A stretch of DNA of 20,074 nucleotides from a virus, in the IMG/VR virus record IMGVR_UViG_3300011113_000082, positions 1 through 20,074 of that record. One strand, given 5' to 3'. The notes under the pieces were generated by a model. The model had not been told where the DNA came from, did no database searches, and was given only the letters and a program-made list of their open reading frames with translations. Both the position numbers and the translations under genes were made by a program. Positions 5,835 to 19,222 of the stretch are shown in pieces (within the stretch, counting starts at the first letter, position 1; every line of letters begins with the position of its first letter).

Positions 5835-6329
5835 CTAGTTTTTAGGAACCCACAACTTTTCATTGCCTTTATTGTGATATCTTGCCATTACGAATAACAA
5901 GTCTGAAAGCCTATTTAGATATTTTGCAATATTTGGATTTATACCATCTATTTTCCAGACCTGACGCTCTGCTCTTCTAACAACTGTCCTTGCGTTATGT
6001 ATAGCCCCAGTAGGAAGAACAAAAGAATGAAGTGGCTCCAAGTATTCGTTATAGTCATCAATTATGTTTTCTAAATGCGTAATTCTTTCCTCTGATATAA
6101 CAATTGTTGGAGCACCAGAAAGTTCTGCACCTAGATCAAATAGGTCATTTTGTATTCTATCTACAATATCATTATGAAATTCAGTTGCCATTCCTATTGC
6201 AGAGTTGGCTTCATCTACCGCACCTATTGCTTCAATTAAATCACTACTTTTATCTATTCTTTCATTAGTAGCCGTAGAAGTTTTTCCATCATCGCCAGTC
6301 TTTGTATAAATACGAGTTAGATGAACCAT
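5835..6329 (-). CDS. pduO: PduO-type ATP:cob(I)alamin adenosyltransferase
   Basis: The product is 164 residues, a little shorter than the usual 180-190 but with all landmark motifs. It shows the ATP-loop motif YTKTGDDGKTS at residues 8-18, GAVDEANSAIG at 36-46, the arginine motif RTVVRRAERQVW at 114-125, and YLNRLSDLLFVMAR at 137-150. The enzyme transfers the adenosyl group of ATP to reduced cob(I)alamin, giving adenosylcobalamin in the cytoplasm. It is the last gene of a run beginning with a B12-dependent ribonucleotide reductase, so the obvious role is to make the cofactor for that enzyme. Its ATG shares one base with the stop of the preceding 54-residue ORF (TAATG), and AGGA lies just upstream. 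The family assignment is strong; the link to the reductase is inference from context. Confidence 0.92.
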   Translation of the reverse strand: MVHLTRIYTKTGDDGKTSTATNERIDKSSDLIEAIGAVDEANSAIGMATEFHNDIVDRIQNDLFDLGAELSGAPTIVISEERITHLENIIDDYNEYLEPLHSFVLPTGAIHNARTVVRRAERQVWKIDGINPNIAKYLNRLSDLLFVMARYHNKGNEKLWVPKN

Positions 6330-6493
6330 TAGTGTCCTGTCAAAGAACGCCAGATATCAATAGTAATATTGTTTGCTATGGATAGTGCTACAAGATTTAT
6401 AGATAACTGAAGTATGTATTCAGCAGTTTTGGCTTTTCTTTTTTGTATAGGAAAATGTACTACGTTATCAAATTTTTTATATGCAACCTTCAT
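6329..6493 (-). CDS. 54-residue ORF linking the cobalamin-binding-like and adenosyltransferase genes
   Basis: This frame encodes 54 residues beginning MKVAYKKFDNVVHF and ending WRSLTGH. Its ATG lies inside the stop of the upstream gene (ATGA overlap) and its stop shares a base with the next start (TAATG). It fills the whole 160-base space between the two genes, strong positional evidence that it is real. AAGG lies about 8 bases before the ATG. The first 24 residues are basic. Residues 25-49 are rich in Ile, Leu, Val and Ala and could be an amphipathic helix or a marginal membrane segment. I do not recognise a family. A role in corrinoid handling is only suggested by its neighbours. It is too short for most gene callers and could easily have been missed. 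Confidence 0.7.
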   Translation of the reverse strand: MKVAYKKFDNVVHFPIQKRKAKTAEYILQLSINLVALSIANNITIDIWRSLTGH

Positions 6494-6945
6494 GGAAACC
6501 TTAACTCTCCGTTAGGGCCAGCCCAGACTAAACCTAGTGAATCTCCTGGGTTTAAATATTGTTGGTCTATTGCTAGTTGTCCCCAACCCCATTCTTTTCT
6601 AGGAAAAGGAATTGTTTGTTTTTCTTTAATAATTAATGCCCAGTATGCTTTTTCTGGTGGCATTATTTCACAAGACTCTGCCTTTTCGTCTGGCAAATTA
6701 TTGACTCTACAGACAACGCCTAGTCCATATTTTTTGGTTCCTTCTATTTCAAGGTTAGCCTTTTTTAAAACATCTAAAGCAATTGTCTTTGTAGATGCAT
6801 CTATACACTTTGTTAGTTTTGTATTACCATCTAATTGACCATAATCAATATATAGATTAATGCAACCATCTTCTGATTTATTTATGGTTTGTAATCCAAC
6901 AAAAGCCAATACTATAATTGCCAATGACGCTAATATTTTTTTCAT
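6490..6945 (-). CDS. Secreted transcobalamin-C-terminal/DUF4430-like protein, likely corrinoid-binding
   Basis: The product is 151 residues. It begins MKK followed by a hydrophobic stretch (residues 4-20), a Sec signal peptide or membrane anchor; no lipobox cysteine follows. The mature part has four cysteines (28, 47, 79, 92), enough for two disulfides. It shows the pattern I associate with DUF4430 and the C-terminal domain of vertebrate transcobalamin/intrinsic factor: LYIDYG, ALDVLKKANL, GLGVVCRVN, PPEKAYWALI, then GWGQLAIDQQYLNPGDSL. Similar secreted proteins occur beside cobalamin transporters in actinobacteria, as far as I recall. The gene starts 8 bases after the nrdJ stop with a strong AAGGGG site, so it is cotranscribed with a B12-dependent enzyme. 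Binding of cobalamin outside the membrane is inference. If the family call is wrong, it is an uncharacterised secreted protein. Confidence 0.68.
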   Translation of the reverse strand: MKKILASLAIIVLAFVGLQTINKSEDGCINLYIDYGQLDGNTKLTKCIDASTKTIALDVLKKANLEIEGTKKYGLGVVCRVNNLPDEKAESCEIMPPEKAYWALIIKEKQTIPFPRKEWGWGQLAIDQQYLNPGDSLGLVWAGPNGELRFP

Positions 6946-6953
6946 TTTTCCCC

Positions 6954-8984
6954 TTAGTAAAGTTTAATTTCACAGGCATCTGTGCTGCAATATGCTTCAC
7001 CCTGTGCTTCTAGATTGTCTATCCCATCATAAATTGCAGACCAATCAATCTTTGCAATTTTACCAACATAAAAGTTATATTCTTCTCTGGTTATTTCATT
7101 GTATGGCTGTTGTGGATAAACCTCATTGCCCATAGGTAAGAAAGAAACTGCTTTAAGTTGACCCTCATACATATGTAATGCTGGTGCAACATGCTTAGTT
7201 TCTGTTTCTTTGTTAAATGACAAGGTTACAGAAACTCCATTATCAGACCAATATTTTTGAGCAGTTGCTGCCAAACCAATTTTTTCAAAAAGGCTTACAT
7301 CTTTTTCAGATCTTGGATGTCCAGATGCTATTGGGAAATATACTACTGAAGTATTTGCTGAAACTAGGTCTGCTTCAACTTTATACCCTGCTGCTTTAAA
7401 CAGATGAAGCATTGGATCTGTATTTCCAAACCTTACAGCACGAAGATAGAATGGTCCTCCAGGACCCCAGTGAACTCCAGGAGTAGCACCAGAAAGTAAT
7501 GATACAGAGCCAGAAGGTTTCACGGTAGTTACACGAATTGACTCACGTACACACAACCATTCTGAATATGAATGATCGTATTGACGAATCTTTCCGTACC
7601 CTTGATCCATCCACTCACGTAATGCTGGCATACCTTTTGTATCTGCAAATGATGCAATACCTGTTAAAGATGTTCCAATACGACGATTACGTTGCATAAT
7701 TCCATTTGTGGTTTGCCAATGTGTTGGAAGAAGCGTTACTGCTTTTCCATAAAGGTAAGCAAACTTTAATGTACGTAAGAAATCTTCTTTATCTTCATGA
7801 CGATTTAAATGAACCTCTACTAGCGTACAAAGTTCGTATGATTCTAACGGTTGCTCTGCACAAGGATTAAAACCCATAACACGAGAATCTTTTCCATCTG
7901 CTGGATCTGCAAGTCTTCCAAAGTTACGTGCAACATCTAACCAAATAAATCCTGGCTCTCCGTTGTTTGCAATTAAATCAACATAATCTTCATACTTTGT
8001 TCCAACTTCTGCAGCAATGGAGTTGTTTGACATCCATGCCCATCCTGGTTTTTCTGGATCGTATGAGTTTCTTTCTGGAAATATCTCTGCATTTTTAAGA
8101 TTAATAAAAGTTTCATCTCCTGGCAAACCAAGTGCTAAAGTAGCAGAGCGACGAACGTTACCAGAAACAACGCAAGTGCCAATAAGATTAATAATATCTA
8201 CAATTGCTCTAGAGTCTAGTTTTTCTCCTGCTCTACCGCCAATAACTTTATCTATTCTTTCATGTAGTGCCTTTAATGGCTCTGGACCACTAGCAACCCC
8301 GCCAAACCCTTTTATAGGGGCACCTAGAGGACGGATAAGGTCATAGTTAAACTTCTGAATAGCCTGATTAGGACGTAGGTATGAGTTTAATAACATTCTT
8401 ACAGAATCTACCCAACCTTCACGAGTATCTGGAATGTCCCATACATTTTCTGGTTCTGTTGGGGCAGAGATAATGATTTCTTTATCTTCACCTATTGTGT
8501 CAAAACCTACACCAATACCTAACATTAAGGCATCCATTACCCAAGCAAATAAAGCACCTGGATCATTACGATCAATATCACGAGTAGATACCATAGCGCA
8601 GTTTTGAAGAGAAGCGGAATTACGTTTTTCCATAGTCATCTGAGTTCCAAAAGCCCAAAGACCACGGCCAGGAGGTGTCCACTTTAGGTTAAATAGACGA
8701 TCATATGCTTCCTGAGCAGATTTTTGGGCTTTATTATCATTCCATGGTAAACGGTTTTCTTTAGCATGATTTTTTTGAACTGAGTACATTCCTTCAATTA
8801 CACGCTTACAGACTTCAAACCATCTTTCTTTTTTACCGTCTTCTTTCATTCTTGAGTAAGTGCGTATAAAGGTGATCTCGCCAAGAGAGTTTGAACCAGC
8901 ATCTGAAAATCCAAATGGTGGTTGTACGTCTTTATATTTTGCTACGAAGTCTTCCAGTAAACGAAAAGAAAAGATGTCTGACAT
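6954..8984 (-). CDS. nrdJ: Class II (adenosylcobalamin-dependent) ribonucleotide reductase, monomeric triphosphate type
   Basis: The product is 676 residues. It reduces ribonucleotides to deoxyribonucleotides using a thiyl radical generated from adenosylcobalamin. The N-terminus (PPFGF, TYSR, WTPPGRGLWAFGT) matches the monomeric Lactobacillus leichmannii RTPR type. Catalytic residues are in place: Cys129 (LQNCAMVS), the radical Cys375 and Glu377 in NPCAEQPL, and Cys386 eleven residues later, the same spacing as Cys408/Cys419 in the L. leichmannii enzyme. The C-terminal redox pair is Cys666/Cys671 in YCSTDACEIK. The family is usually a little over 700 residues, so this one is compact but appears complete. 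It opens the cobalamin cassette, has GGAAA before its ATG, and has its own promoter just after a terminator, so it is controlled apart from the fibre genes. No NrdR box or cobalamin riboswitch is visible. Confidence 0.95.
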   Translation of the reverse strand: MSDIFSFRLLEDFVAKYKDVQPPFGFSDAGSNSLGEITFIRTYSRMKEDGKKERWFEVCKRVIEGMYSVQKNHAKENRLPWNDNKAQKSAQEAYDRLFNLKWTPPGRGLWAFGTQMTMEKRNSASLQNCAMVSTRDIDRNDPGALFAWVMDALMLGIGVGFDTIGEDKEIIISAPTEPENVWDIPDTREGWVDSVRMLLNSYLRPNQAIQKFNYDLIRPLGAPIKGFGGVASGPEPLKALHERIDKVIGGRAGEKLDSRAIVDIINLIGTCVVSGNVRRSATLALGLPGDETFINLKNAEIFPERNSYDPEKPGWAWMSNNSIAAEVGTKYEDYVDLIANNGEPGFIWLDVARNFGRLADPADGKDSRVMGFNPCAEQPLESYELCTLVEVHLNRHEDKEDFLRTLKFAYLYGKAVTLLPTHWQTTNGIMQRNRRIGTSLTGIASFADTKGMPALREWMDQGYGKIRQYDHSYSEWLCVRESIRVTTVKPSGSVSLLSGATPGVHWGPGGPFYLRAVRFGNTDPMLHLFKAAGYKVEADLVSANTSVVYFPIASGHPRSEKDVSLFEKIGLAATAQKYWSDNGVSVTLSFNKETETKHVAPALHMYEGQLKAVSFLPMGNEVYPQQPYNEITREEYNFYVGKIAKIDWSAIYDGIDNLEAQGEAYCSTDACEIKLY

Positions 8985-9029: not shown

Positions 9030-9058
9030 ATTATAAAGTAGTGTTAAGTATATCACAA
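9030..9058 (-). promoter_or_regulatory. Sigma-70-like promoter for the nrdJ cobalamin cassette
   Basis: The minus strand reads TTGTGA (9058-9053), a 17-base spacer, then TATAAT (9035-9030). It lies just after a terminator and 46 bases before the nrdJ ATG. The spacing is ideal. This is unlike the extended -10 type used elsewhere in the window. Confidence 0.65.
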
Positions 9059-9061
9059 ATT

Positions 9062-9093
9062 TAAAAAGAAAAACACGCTTGTTTAGAGCGTGT
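9062..9093 (-). terminator. Intrinsic terminator after the large tail fibre gene
   Basis: ACACGCT (9073-9079) and AGCGTGT (9087-9093) form a perfect 7-bp stem with a 7-base loop. In the minus-strand transcript it is followed by a T-rich tract (TTTTCTTTTT). It separates the fibre operon from the cobalamin cassette. The stretch from 9094 to 9176 is very AT-rich and holds nothing I can name. Confidence 0.85.
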
Positions 9094-9176: not shown

Positions 9177-10991
9177 CTATGCACCAATTAGCATAAATTC
9201 GCTAAATGCTGCTCCACCACCTGCTGCGCCCCAAGACAAAGCGCCAGAACCATCTGTTTTTAAGAACTGACCACTTGAACCATCTGCTGAAGGAAGTGTC
9301 CAAATTCTGTTTGCAGTTACAGTTCCAGGAGCCTTAAAACCAACATAGTTGCTTGAGTCTGTATCTGCTAATCTAAGTTCTGCTGTAGCATTAAGAGTAA
9401 GTGCAGTTGTTGCTACTGGACTAGATAAAGTTGGAGAAGATGCAAATACAAGTGATCCAGAACCAGTTTCATCTGTTATTGCAGAAGCAAGGTTTGCAGA
9501 TGATGGTGTTCCAAGGAATGTAGCAATACCAGTTCCAAGTGATGTTATTCCTGTACCGCCGTTTGCTACTGGCAGTGTTCCAGTAACACCAGTGGAAAGA
9601 GGCAAACCAGTTACATTTGTCATTACACCAGATGCTGGAGTTCCAAGTGCTGGTGTAGTTAATGTTGGAGATGTTAATGTTTTATTTGTAAGAGTTTGTG
9701 CGGTATTTAAATCTACAGTTGTTGCAGTATTAATACTAAATGTTGTTCCAGTTAGTGTTAATCCTGTACCTGCTGAGTATGTGCCTGCACCAGAGAATTG
9801 GGTAAACTCAATATTGTCTGAGCCAATAGTTGTTATAACGTTTGTTTGTACCCAGCCAGTTTTTCCGTTTACTGTACCAGCCTCTACGAAAATAAAGTCT
9901 CCAGCATCTACTTCTGGACTTGAGTCATAATCTGTTGCACGATCTGGAGTGCCAGATGCTTTAACTACATAAACGCCGTTTTCTGTTTTATTTGTTTGAT
10001 TTTTTACAAGAATGCGATTACCTGTTGCTAATGTTACTCCATCAAGAGTGTCGCCATTTTCAAGGGCACTTGCTAATGTAACATTTGCTGTTGTAGCAGC
10101 CTGTACTGCAGCATGAACGTTAAGTCCTGCTGTTGCAGCGTCTACATATGCTTTTGTAGCAGCATCTGCATCTGCTGTAGGAGTTCCAAGACCTGTGATC
10201 TTGTTTGTTCCCATTGCGATAGCACCAGTCATTGTACCACCAGCAAGTGCTAATTTGGCTGCAAGGTCTGTAGTTAGGTCAGAAATCTTTGATTGAGCAA
10301 TTGCAGCAGAAGCGTTAATATCATCATTTGTAATTGTTCCATTAACAATCATTGTACTTGTTACGGTACCACTATCACTAGTTGTAACAACTCCTGCTGG
10401 AATATCTGTTGTTAAAGCAATTGTGCCTGTGCTAGTTGGAAGAGTTAATGTTGCAGCACCATTAGTAATAGATGAAATTACTGGTGTTGTTAATGTTTTA
10501 TTTGTTAAAGTTTGTGTTGCGCTGTCAAGAACAATTGTTCCTGTAGCATTTGGAAATGTAGCAGTGCGGTCTGCTGTTGGGTCTCCTGCAGAAATTGTAA
10601 GTTCATAAGCATCTGCTGTAGAGCCTTCCATTGTAATTGTTGAAGTAAATACACCAATATCTGTGATATCTGAAAGATTTCCAGTTGTAATAACTGTACC
10701 ACTTGTATTTGGAAGAGTAATTGTACGATCAGCAGTTGGGTCTGTTACCTGTAACACTGTTTCATAAGAGTCAGCGGTAGCACCTTCAAAAGTAATGCTT
10801 GAACCAAAAGCAGGATTTACTGTTGAGTTAATATCAGCAAAGTAGTCTAGGTCTGCCCAGTGATTTGTTCCATCACCAATTTTAAATTTATTTGTATCTG
10901 ATTCCCAACCCATTTCACCAGCATTTAATACTGGGTTTGCTGATGTCCATTGCGCTGCAGTACCTCTGCGTTGCTGCATTCTGGTTGCCAT
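9177..10991 (-). CDS. Large tail fibre protein with structural-repeat shaft
   Basis: The product is 604 residues. It opens with the phage fibre N-terminal motif [15 protein letters not shown], then [17 protein letters not shown], a common attachment segment. The shaft has repeats of [12 protein letters not shown] type and LTNKTL type, then a block at residues 256-421 ([42 protein letters not shown]) shared with the fibre at 11507-13474. The C-terminus has [15 protein letters not shown] and ends FMLIGA, like the smaller protein at 16616-17047. There is no signal peptide. The role is probably receptor binding as a trimeric fibre. It has an AAGGAG ribosome site and an extended -10 upstream, and is followed by a terminator, so it ends its operon. 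A long antisense open frame inside it is a codon-bias shadow. Confidence 0.88.
9729..10226 (-). repeat. Fibre block paralogous to 12011-12514
   Basis: This roughly 166-codon segment encodes the same domain as the block in the fibre gene at 11507-13474. The match is clear at protein level, for example LENGD(T/V)(L/I)[16 protein letters not shown], with drift elsewhere. Boundaries are by eye. Confidence 0.75.
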
Positions 10992-14874: not shown

Positions 14875-14898
14875 TTGTTCTCTAGGAGGTATTTTACA

Positions 14899-15444
14899 AT
14901 GAGAGAATCTAATGCTTGGCTAGGGGTATTTACGTTAGTTATTTGCAGTACTGTTTTTGTTGGTACAGCAAAGGCTACAAATGAAAATAACTTACTAATT
15001 AGAGAGTCTGTGAGATCTGCCACCCAACAGGTGGCTTTTTTGGTTTCTAAAGACAAAAAATTAGAAAAGTATGAAAATGCTCATAATTTAACTGATGAGC
15101 AATTAGTTGATATGTTACGTCATGTGGGGTTTGAAGGAAAAGCCTTAAGATCTGCTTGTGCTATTGCCAAAGCAGAGTCTAATGGTCGTCCTCTTGCCTT
15201 TAATGGTAATGTAAAAACTGGAGATAGTTCTTATGGTGTATTTCAAATAAATATGCTTGGTGAACTTGGATCAGATCGTAGAGATAAATTTGAGTTAGAT
15301 TCAAATGCTGAATTATTAAATCCAGTACTTAATTCTCAAATTGCTTTACATATGAGTGATGGTGGAAAAGATTGGTCTGCATGGAGTTCCGTAAATGGAA
15401 AAAGGTATCAGGAATGGTACAACAAATATCCATGCAAAAGATAG
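14899..15444 (+). CDS. Secreted lysozyme/transglycosylase-like protein
   Basis: The product is 181 residues. The ATG at 14899 is chosen because AGGAGG lies 9 bases upstream; an upstream in-frame ATG at 14875 has no such site. Residues 1-25 form a Sec signal peptide (hydrophobic LGVFTLVICSTVFVG, cleavage after TAKA). Residues 65-175 look like a lysozyme-fold SLT domain: the presumed catalytic Glu93 in AIAKAESNGR, then SSYGVFQIN at 110-118, and DWSAWSSVNGKRYQEW near the end. Such enzymes cut peptidoglycan glycan strands. It is the only plus-strand gene here, has its own promoter, operator-like site and terminator, and interrupts the tail genes. It may serve in lysis, in cell-wall remodelling by a lysogen, or in exclusion of other phages; the sequence does not decide. 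Confidence 0.85.
   Translation: MRESNAWLGVFTLVICSTVFVGTAKATNENNLLIRESVRSATQQVAFLVSKDKKLEKYENAHNLTDEQLVDMLRHVGFEGKALRSACAIAKAESNGRPLAFNGNVKTGDSSYGVFQINMLGELGSDRRDKFELDSNAELLNPVLNSQIALHMSDGGKDWSAWSSVNGKRYQEWYNKYPCKR
15019..15041 (+). terminator. Terminator-like hairpin inside the transglycosylase coding sequence
   Basis: GCCACC and GGTGGC form a perfect 6-bp GC-rich stem with a 5-base loop, followed at once by TTTTTT. It falls in codons 41-48 of the gene. It fits an intrinsic terminator and could produce a short RNA of about 190 bases or act as an attenuator. Confidence 0.6.
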
Positions 15445-18505: not shown

Positions 18506-19222
18506 CTATGATACCGATATATATATGCCTTTTAAAATAAACGAACTTTCATTATCAGTTCTAATTTGAGGTATTCCTCCATAGTTTTTAATTTTGTCGT
18601 TATTTATAAAAATGGTTTGACAATGAGATAAATCGTACTCATATTGATACTTTAAGAGTCCAACATGTCCAATTGGTGATAAATCTTCATCTCTTAATAA
18701 AGTCCTTATCCAAACCTCTGTATTTGATACATAAGTTTCTAAAGAAAAGTCATATCTGATATCCACCCTTGAACCAACTTTTAAGGTTTTTAGATTTATG
18801 TTTTTTGATATAGGGTTTAATAAGGAAACTGATTTATTTGGTAAATAGGATTCAATGGTTTTTGATTCATCAATATCTAAGAAAAAATTTACCCAACCAT
18901 CATCTCCTCTTTCTGGTCCAGTCCTATATGTTTGTATGCCTTTGTTTGCATAGTATCCCCATCCAGGATATTGTCCAGATGGGCTATCATATCCATCCCC
19001 TGCTTTACCTGGTTCACCACGCTCACCCTGTGGCCCCTGTTTACCTGGATCACCTTTATCGCCTTTGTCTCCTTTAGGCCCTTGTGGTCCAGGAGGTCCC
19101 TGTGGTCCAGTATCGCCCTTTTCTCCAGTTATTCCAGGAACAGCGATATACTCTGTTGTTTTTACTTCTTTTATGGTTTCTAAATATTTTTTCTTTTGAG
19201 GAAAGTCCATGCTTTTAGCCAT
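18506..19222 (-). CDS. Collagen-like tail fibre protein
   Basis: The product is 238 residues. A lysine-rich, probably helical N-terminus (1-28) leads into about 16 Gly-X-Y triplets at residues 30-77 (GEKGDTGPQGPP, GDKGDKGDPG). These would form a collagen triple helix and so a trimeric stalk. The C-terminal 150 residues (GYYANKGIQTYRTG, GSRVDIRYDFSLETYVSNTEVWIR) look beta-rich and are the likely trimeric head. It has GAGGA about 10 bases before the ATG. It stands between two BppU-like genes. The role in host binding is inferred; the collagen repeat is seen directly. Confidence 0.85.
   Translation of the reverse strand: MAKSMDFPQKKKYLETIKEVKTTEYIAVPGITGEKGDTGPQGPPGPQGPKGDKGDKGDPGKQGPQGERGEPGKAGDGYDSPSGQYPGWGYYANKGIQTYRTGPERGDDGWVNFFLDIDESKTIESYLPNKSVSLLNPISKNINLKTLKVGSRVDIRYDFSLETYVSNTEVWIRTLLRDEDLSPIGHVGLLKYQYEYDLSHCQTIFINNDKIKNYGGIPQIRTDNESSFILKGIYISVS

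Follow-up and report, generated by a model that had tools for sequence, protein, structure and literature searches.

A phage gene block predicted to join vitamin B12 capture, adenosylation and ribonucleotide reduction

The gene block and its predicted enzymes

The IMG/VR virus record IMGVR_UViG_3300011113_000082 (positions 1 to 20,074, a stretch of 20,074 nucleotides referred to here as the window) carries on the minus strand, at 5835-8984, a block of four genes that is probably a phage module for the capture, adenosylation and use of vitamin B12, a reading to which we assign a probability of about 0.6. The block begins with nrdJ (6954-8984, 676 amino acids), followed by a gene designated sec (6490-6945, 151 amino acids), a micro-open reading frame (micro-ORF; 6329-6493, 54 amino acids) and a gene for a PduO-type adenosyltransferase (5835-6329, 164 amino acids), all with an ATG start. 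Eight bases lie between the end of nrdJ at 6954 and the start of sec at 6945, the end of sec (6490) and the start of the micro-ORF (6493) form an ATGA-type overlap of four bases, and the micro-ORF ends on the base at which PduO starts, 6329, in a one-base TAATG overlap. The open reading frames at 5835-8984 agree with the original prediction of four co-directional genes, one gap of 8 bases and two short overlaps, and the order nrdJ-sec-micro-PduO is seen again in dozens of IMG/VR contigs. Purifying selection acts on all four genes, with median ratios of nonsynonymous to synonymous substitution (dN/dS) of 0.05 for PduO, 0.10 for NrdJ and 0.25 for both Sec and the micro-ORF, and the last value argues that the micro-ORF is a real gene.

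Class II ribonucleotide reductases (RNRs) use adenosylcobalamin (AdoCbl), and NrdJ is predicted by its residues and domains to be one of them, an AdoCbl-dependent monomeric ribonucleoside-triphosphate reductase (RTPR). It matches phrog_367 (E 3e-141) and the monomeric RTPR of L. leichmannii, 1l1l (E 3e-94), and exceeds the Pfam cut-offs for RNR_Alpha (PF17975, 110.2 bits) and for the B12-RNR insertion domain (PF21995, 44.2 bits). In the alignment with 1l1l, the thiyl-radical cysteine C375 with N373 and E377 corresponds to C408, N406 and E410 of the L. leichmannii enzyme, the reducing pair C129/C386 to C119/C419, and the C-terminal shuttle pair C666/C671 to C731/C736. The B12-specific insertion domain and the RTPR cysteines rule out a misannotated class I RNR, a confusion of classes that is debated for cyanophage RNRs (PMC9531940). 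NrdJ is not a certified equivalog of NCBIfam TIGR02505, as its score of 337.0 lies 3 bits below the cut-off of 340.05; the related NrdJ of locus L118 scores 363.6.

PduO-type enzymes make AdoCbl, and the last gene of the block is predicted to encode such an ATP:corrinoid adenosyltransferase, with scores of 152.6 bits on TIGR00636 (cut-off 108.45) and 165.3 bits on PF01923 (cut-off 24) and the M. tuberculosis enzyme (2g2d) as its closest entry in the PDB. The N-terminal TKTGDxG loop and the active-site motifs RxxxRRAER and NRLSD are invariant in 12 sequences of the window's own lineage (lineage i), and these motifs agree with 35 bacterial sequences wherever the latter are conserved. The residues that match Arg186, Arg190 and Ser217 of human MMAB (PMC9262797) are invariant in the phage family as well. 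In a tree of 65 PduO proteins the second phage lineage (lineage ii) lies inside freshwater Actinobacteria with the window lineage separate from it, which on this tree requires several acquisitions of PduO by phages; the two lineages were acquired separately from Actinobacteria. Matches to PduO in named phage records, none of which exceeds 42% identity, were all set aside; several of them (Listeria, Salmonella and Enterococcus records) resemble bacterial DNA in phage preparations.

A single transmembrane helix is predicted in the micro-ORF product (residues 27-45), which also has a basic N-terminal half and a near-invariant C-terminal motif, WRSLTGH.

The predicted fold of Sec

Searches of Sec against Pfam, PHROGs, NCBIfam and PDB sequences gave no useful match. 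Its residues 3-22 (6880-6939, minus strand) form a hydrophobic N-terminal helix with a hydropathy of 2.15 over 19 residues, predicted to be a signal anchor or signal peptide, and four cysteines are invariant, which suggests two disulfides outside the cytoplasm. Sec would thus appear to be a membrane-anchored, extracytoplasmic protein.

The final AlphaFold model, built from 53 homologues, has a predicted local distance difference test score (pLDDT) of 86.4, with most of the mature domain above 90 and agreement among the five models. A first model from 20 sequences (pLDDT 75) had given the same list of matches; with the deeper alignment, Z-scores for B12 carriers rose from about 10 to about 11, with Foldseek E-values still at about 1e-3 to 1e-2. 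The top 16 Foldseek matches consist only of transcobalamins and the DUF4430 protein 3u7z, with probabilities of 0.97-1.00. The best 15 matches in VIA-align are likewise transcobalamin, intrinsic factor, haptocorrin and 3u7z. Their Z-scores are 10.3-11.0 and they superimpose over 93-97 residues at 2.5-3.1 Å; the next fold has a Z of at most 6.0. In the model, the mature domain, residues 27-144 (6514-6867, minus strand), can be aligned with the B12-binding beta domain of transcobalamin. Sec is therefore predicted to have a beta-grasp fold of the transcobalamin type (SLBB/DUF4430-like). The original description of a secreted, DUF4430-like protein holds at the level of the fold and fails at that of the Pfam DUF4430 hidden Markov model (HMM).

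The transcobalamin-like SLBB clade is defined by a beta-hairpin after the helix, in which a hydrophobic position stacks on the cobalamin base (PMC1796856). The Sec model has a helix at residues 56-62, then a hairpin insert at 67-81 (strands 67-70 and 74-81), and position 73 within this insert (Y73) holds Y or W in all 53 sequences; the predicted hairpin and its aromatic residue agree with the published definition of the clade. G69, G74 and G134 are also invariant and are candidates at most for the two conserved glycines of the superfamily. Binding of corrinoids by Sec is inferred from this model. SLBB domains bind diverse ligands (PMC1796856), and Sec might accordingly bind something other than a corrinoid, or it might withhold B12 from competing cells or phages; the missing Pfam DUF4430 match would suit this alternative, as would the fact that the B12 contacts cannot be mapped at residue level. 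We consider it improbable, as the partner genes encode an adenosyltransferase and a B12 enzyme and Sec has the hairpin insert, conserved aromatic residue included.

No structural relatives of Sec were found in the BFVD viral library, and no relative in GTDB species contigs. Among bacterial DUF4430 genes, a Streptomyces-like one has a cobalamin riboswitch just upstream (L420:913-1641). This gene adjoins a possible BtuF-like gene and has a gene for a toroid-DUF4430 protein nearby, which may make it a bacterial transcobalamin-like locus.

Linkage and exchange across phages

Linkage was counted over distinct IMG/VR PduO loci with enough flanking DNA, drawn from searches anchored on PduO and on sec; the counts are thus no unbiased survey. 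Sec adjoins PduO in 79 of 88 such loci and NrdJ adjoins in 54 of 85. The expectation that the genes are linked across related phages is therefore borne out tightly for sec-micro-PduO, but more loosely for NrdJ, which is distant in other loci and which many phages carry without the unit.

Partners within the block have been exchanged around sec. In L145 and L146, NrdJ is only 27% identical and yet is followed by sec-micro-PduO, while in L117, L118, L131-134, L142, L143, L147 and L148 Sec is 58-71% identical and PduO only about 50%. One sec family thus occurs with two NrdJ lineages and two PduO lineages, and all four combinations are seen. The unit has also changed its place: sec-micro-PduO lies between two replication-region genes in L077-L080 and in many of the L28x-L31x loci, and G002 and G007, which have nothing inserted at that junction, carry the cassette beside tail genes. 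The order PduO-sec is found in L277-L280, L282 and L283. As to the flanks of the replication-region site, the genes on either side of sec-micro-PduO, or of PduO alone, in L077-L080 and L284-L320 are a small conserved gene and a gene for a Cas4-like exonuclease.

If these were unrelated metabolic genes that had gathered by the tail genes without joint function, a cassette placed among structural genes, as in the window's group, is what would be expected. Such hitch-hiking is highly improbable: there were independent gains, NrdJ and PduO have each been replaced by non-orthologous versions around sec, the unit has relocated as a whole and purifying selection is strong.

A different division of labour would restrict the B12 circuit to PduO and NrdJ and give Sec and the micro-protein a surface role, for example the exclusion of superinfecting phages through the masking of a phage receptor or importer, with co-expression serving only their timing. 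T5-like phages have surface lipoproteins that block phage receptors, both Sec and the micro-protein are predicted membrane proteins, both evolve faster than the two enzymes (dN/dS 0.25), as is common for surface proteins, and both persist without PduO in L125-L127. However, sec stays beside PduO when the unit relocates and when one PduO lineage replaces the other, and the fold of Sec matches B12 carriers specifically, which makes a mere surface role unlikely.

Every cassette record with a length of at least 90 kb (13 of 13) encodes a class II NrdJ, adjacent to the cassette in 7 and distant from it in 6, and no other B12-binding enzyme (PF02310) was found above the cut-off in 32 phage records. 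The 60 kb fragment of one cassette phage, G018, shows no NrdJ and has a sub-threshold match to the B12-binding domain (15.4 bits, in a frame of 355 amino acids; L333, G018:C1:24639-24872). Taken together, the earlier idea that the phage brings B12 binding, activation and use into one place stands in so far as NrdJ, PduO and a Sec fold like that of B12 carriers form a conserved, repeatedly recombined block; binding by Sec and the activity of the shortened PduO are its putative elements.

The likely boundary of the unit is a terminator-promoter pair that separates nrdJ from the tail-fibre gene upstream of it. A terminator-like hairpin with a T-run (9073-9093, minus strand) separates the tail-fibre gene from the cassette, and compensatory changes keep its stem in L005, L038, L039 and L125. 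A promoter-like site, TTGTGA-17-TATAAT (9030-9058, minus strand), lies upstream of nrdJ; it is a weak indication, as such patterns are no commoner here than in shuffled sequence. Both sites are kept in the close relatives of the window.

Elsewhere in the window, the tail-fibre-like protein (9177-10991, minus strand) has an Mtd_N domain (major tropism determinant N-terminus), and a further gene on the minus strand (18506-19222) encodes collagen-like GPQGPPGPQGPKGDKGD repeats and is probably a tail or surface fibre. A lysozyme-like (SLT_3) protein with a hydrophobic N-terminal stretch is encoded at 14875-15444 by the sole gene on the opposite (plus) strand among the tail genes, and similar genes occur in L053, L060 and L067.

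Putative hosts, proposed route of B12 and known systems

The nearest cellular PduO proteins are those of freshwater acI-type Actinobacteria, including Candidatus Planktophila versatilis, and the phage hosts are probably abundant freshwater Actinobacteria of this kind (acI/Nanopelagicales-like). WhiB-like proteins, which we take to be such by eye, are encoded near the cassette in L142 (6368-6703) and L148 (1558-1875 and 3405-3707), in L148 with one between NrdJ and sec; such neighbours fit an actinobacterial host. A long RNR is present in ten acI/Planktophila genomes, and the one that was scanned is a B12-dependent NrdJ (NF005122, 1581 bits). None of the ten has CobI/CbiL above the cut-off and nine have a CbiQ-type transporter component, and by our check of these sequences the putative hosts appear to be B12 auxotrophs. 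In the literature, too, Planktophila counts as reliant on other organisms for its B vitamins, B12 among them (PMC7527133).

The following route can be proposed. On infection of a B12-auxotrophic, acI/Nanopelagicales-like actinobacterium, Sec would be displayed outside the cytoplasmic membrane on its N-terminal anchor, would capture corrinoid through its transcobalamin-type fold and would pass it to a B12 importer of the host, probably of the energy-coupling factor (ECF) type, with the single-pass micro-protein as a possible membrane partner of Sec. In the cytoplasm, PduO would convert cob(I)alamin and ATP to AdoCbl, which would serve the phage NrdJ in making deoxynucleoside triphosphates (dNTPs) for phage replication. 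The outer location of Sec, its handover of corrinoid to the importer and any part played by the micro-protein are inferred. In its boldest form this would be virus-encoded vitamin uptake, in which an extracytoplasmic transcobalamin-like receptor and a tiny membrane partner dock onto the host's ECF-type B12 importer and feed the phage's PduO and NrdJ, so that infection concentrates B12 in the cell; this form is put forward tentatively, at somewhat less than even odds.

Several observations weigh against a B12 module of this kind. As to Sec, the Pfam DUF4430 HMM (PF14478) matched none of 20 members and gave no match at E<=1 when run on four phage records, and a profile-profile comparison of Sec with five actinobacterial DUF4430 proteins (hhalign) gave no clear verdict. 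The transcobalamin beta domain works together with an alpha toroid, and the cassette encodes no toroid, so the affinity of Sec may be low. A search for cobalamin riboswitches around the cassette was negative. PduO of the window type is compact through two deletions. One takes 5 residues out of the stretch that runs from LPxG to HxAR, close to the active site, and the other takes out a loop; the LPxG-HxAR loop, intact in lineage ii, is usual in the PduO family and is not known to be essential. PduO occurs without sec in nine distinct loci, and L125-L127, as natural deletions, keep NrdJ-sec-micro with PduO cleanly absent and a tail gene after the micro-ORF. Neither sec nor PduO lies near NrdJ in any of 80 NrdJ loci of the type found in phage DSL-LC01, and none of 21 DSL-LC01-type NrdJ records has PduO anywhere in the available sequence, which makes sec-micro-PduO an addition to NrdJ and not a requirement for it. 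Finally, the host is a putative one, and the acI host has a PduO of its own (L343).

PduO might instead serve the AdoCbl economy of the host, that is, its own NrdJ, a mutase or AdoCbl-sensing regulators, and not the phage NrdJ. The putative hosts do own a B12-dependent RNR, the 13 records that reach 90 kb include 6 with NrdJ at a distance from the cassette, and PduO is missing from the 21 DSL-LC01-type records. Set against this, every one of those 13 records has NrdJ, 54 of the 85 loci with enough flanking DNA have it directly upstream, and no other B12-binding enzyme was found in the phages. A role confined to the host economy is accordingly quite improbable.

The module would still lean on its host. 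The original prediction held that dNTP supply becomes independent of the host's cofactor state, and this is not supported in that form: no CbiQ-type transporter was found in the six phage records searched and no gene for corrin synthesis or cobalamin reduction is visible in the window. The phage therefore very probably still needs external B12, a host transporter and host reductant, and the cassette, which holds no corrin-synthesis or reductase gene, strengthens the host supply and does not replace it.

Each part of the cassette has known kin, namely phage class II RNRs, viral cobA (PMC11183165) and bacterial transcobalamin-like proteins (PMC1796856). The open-access literature, to which our search was directed (subscription literature lay outside its scope), gave no paper on the full combination, in keeping with the original prediction, which knew of none, and no description of a viral transcobalamin-like protein. 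That B12-dependent viruses might enhance B12 uptake has been raised as speculation only (PMC10547690). The cassette offers named, testable genes for the question whether such viruses exploit the host cofactor only or actively raise its uptake, and does so in apparent viruses of a highly abundant group of freshwater bacteria. A viral transcobalamin-like protein, if confirmed, would be a new biological setting for the fold, and phage-driven capture of B12, if it occurs, would bear on who gets the scarce B12 of lakes.

Each protein can be compared with known systems. Phages and virioplankton carry the same reductase, a monomeric class II RNR (mycobacteriophage Gaia, phage DSL-LC01 and cobaviruses; PMC10547690, PMC6775973), for AdoCbl-dependent ribonucleotide reduction in the service of phage DNA; the reductases of Gaia and DSL-LC01 share 61% identity with NrdJ of the window. 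The Gaia, DSL-LC01 and cobavirus phages are described as relying on host or environmental B12, and neither PduO nor the sec unit was found in records of the DSL-LC01 type. With the PduO-type ATP:cob(I)alamin adenosyltransferases of M. tuberculosis (2g2d), human (MMAB) and Planktophila, the window enzyme shares the TIGR00636/PF01923 family and the active-site residues; in contrast to them it is phage-encoded and compact, with 164 amino acids and two deletions. One report of a viral adenosyltransferase was found, a gene annotated as cobA in wastewater virus contigs (PMC11183165). Sec has in common with the transcobalamin-like SLBB clade (transcobalamin, intrinsic factor, haptocorrin and bacterial DUF4430 proteins such as 3u7z) the predicted fold, the aromatic hairpin insert, the predicted secreted or surface site and the context of B12 genes, but it is viral, only about 13-18% identical, below detection by the Pfam HMM, and has two putative disulfides and an N-terminal membrane anchor. 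Bacterial SLBB proteins of the transcobalamin type adjoin CbiO/CbiQ genes in B12 auxotrophs and are predicted B12 scavengers (PMC1796856). These loci share with the proposed cassette the predicted capture of B12 at the surface of auxotrophs; the cassette differs from them in having no transporter and in coupling the capture to adenosylation and ribonucleotide reduction.

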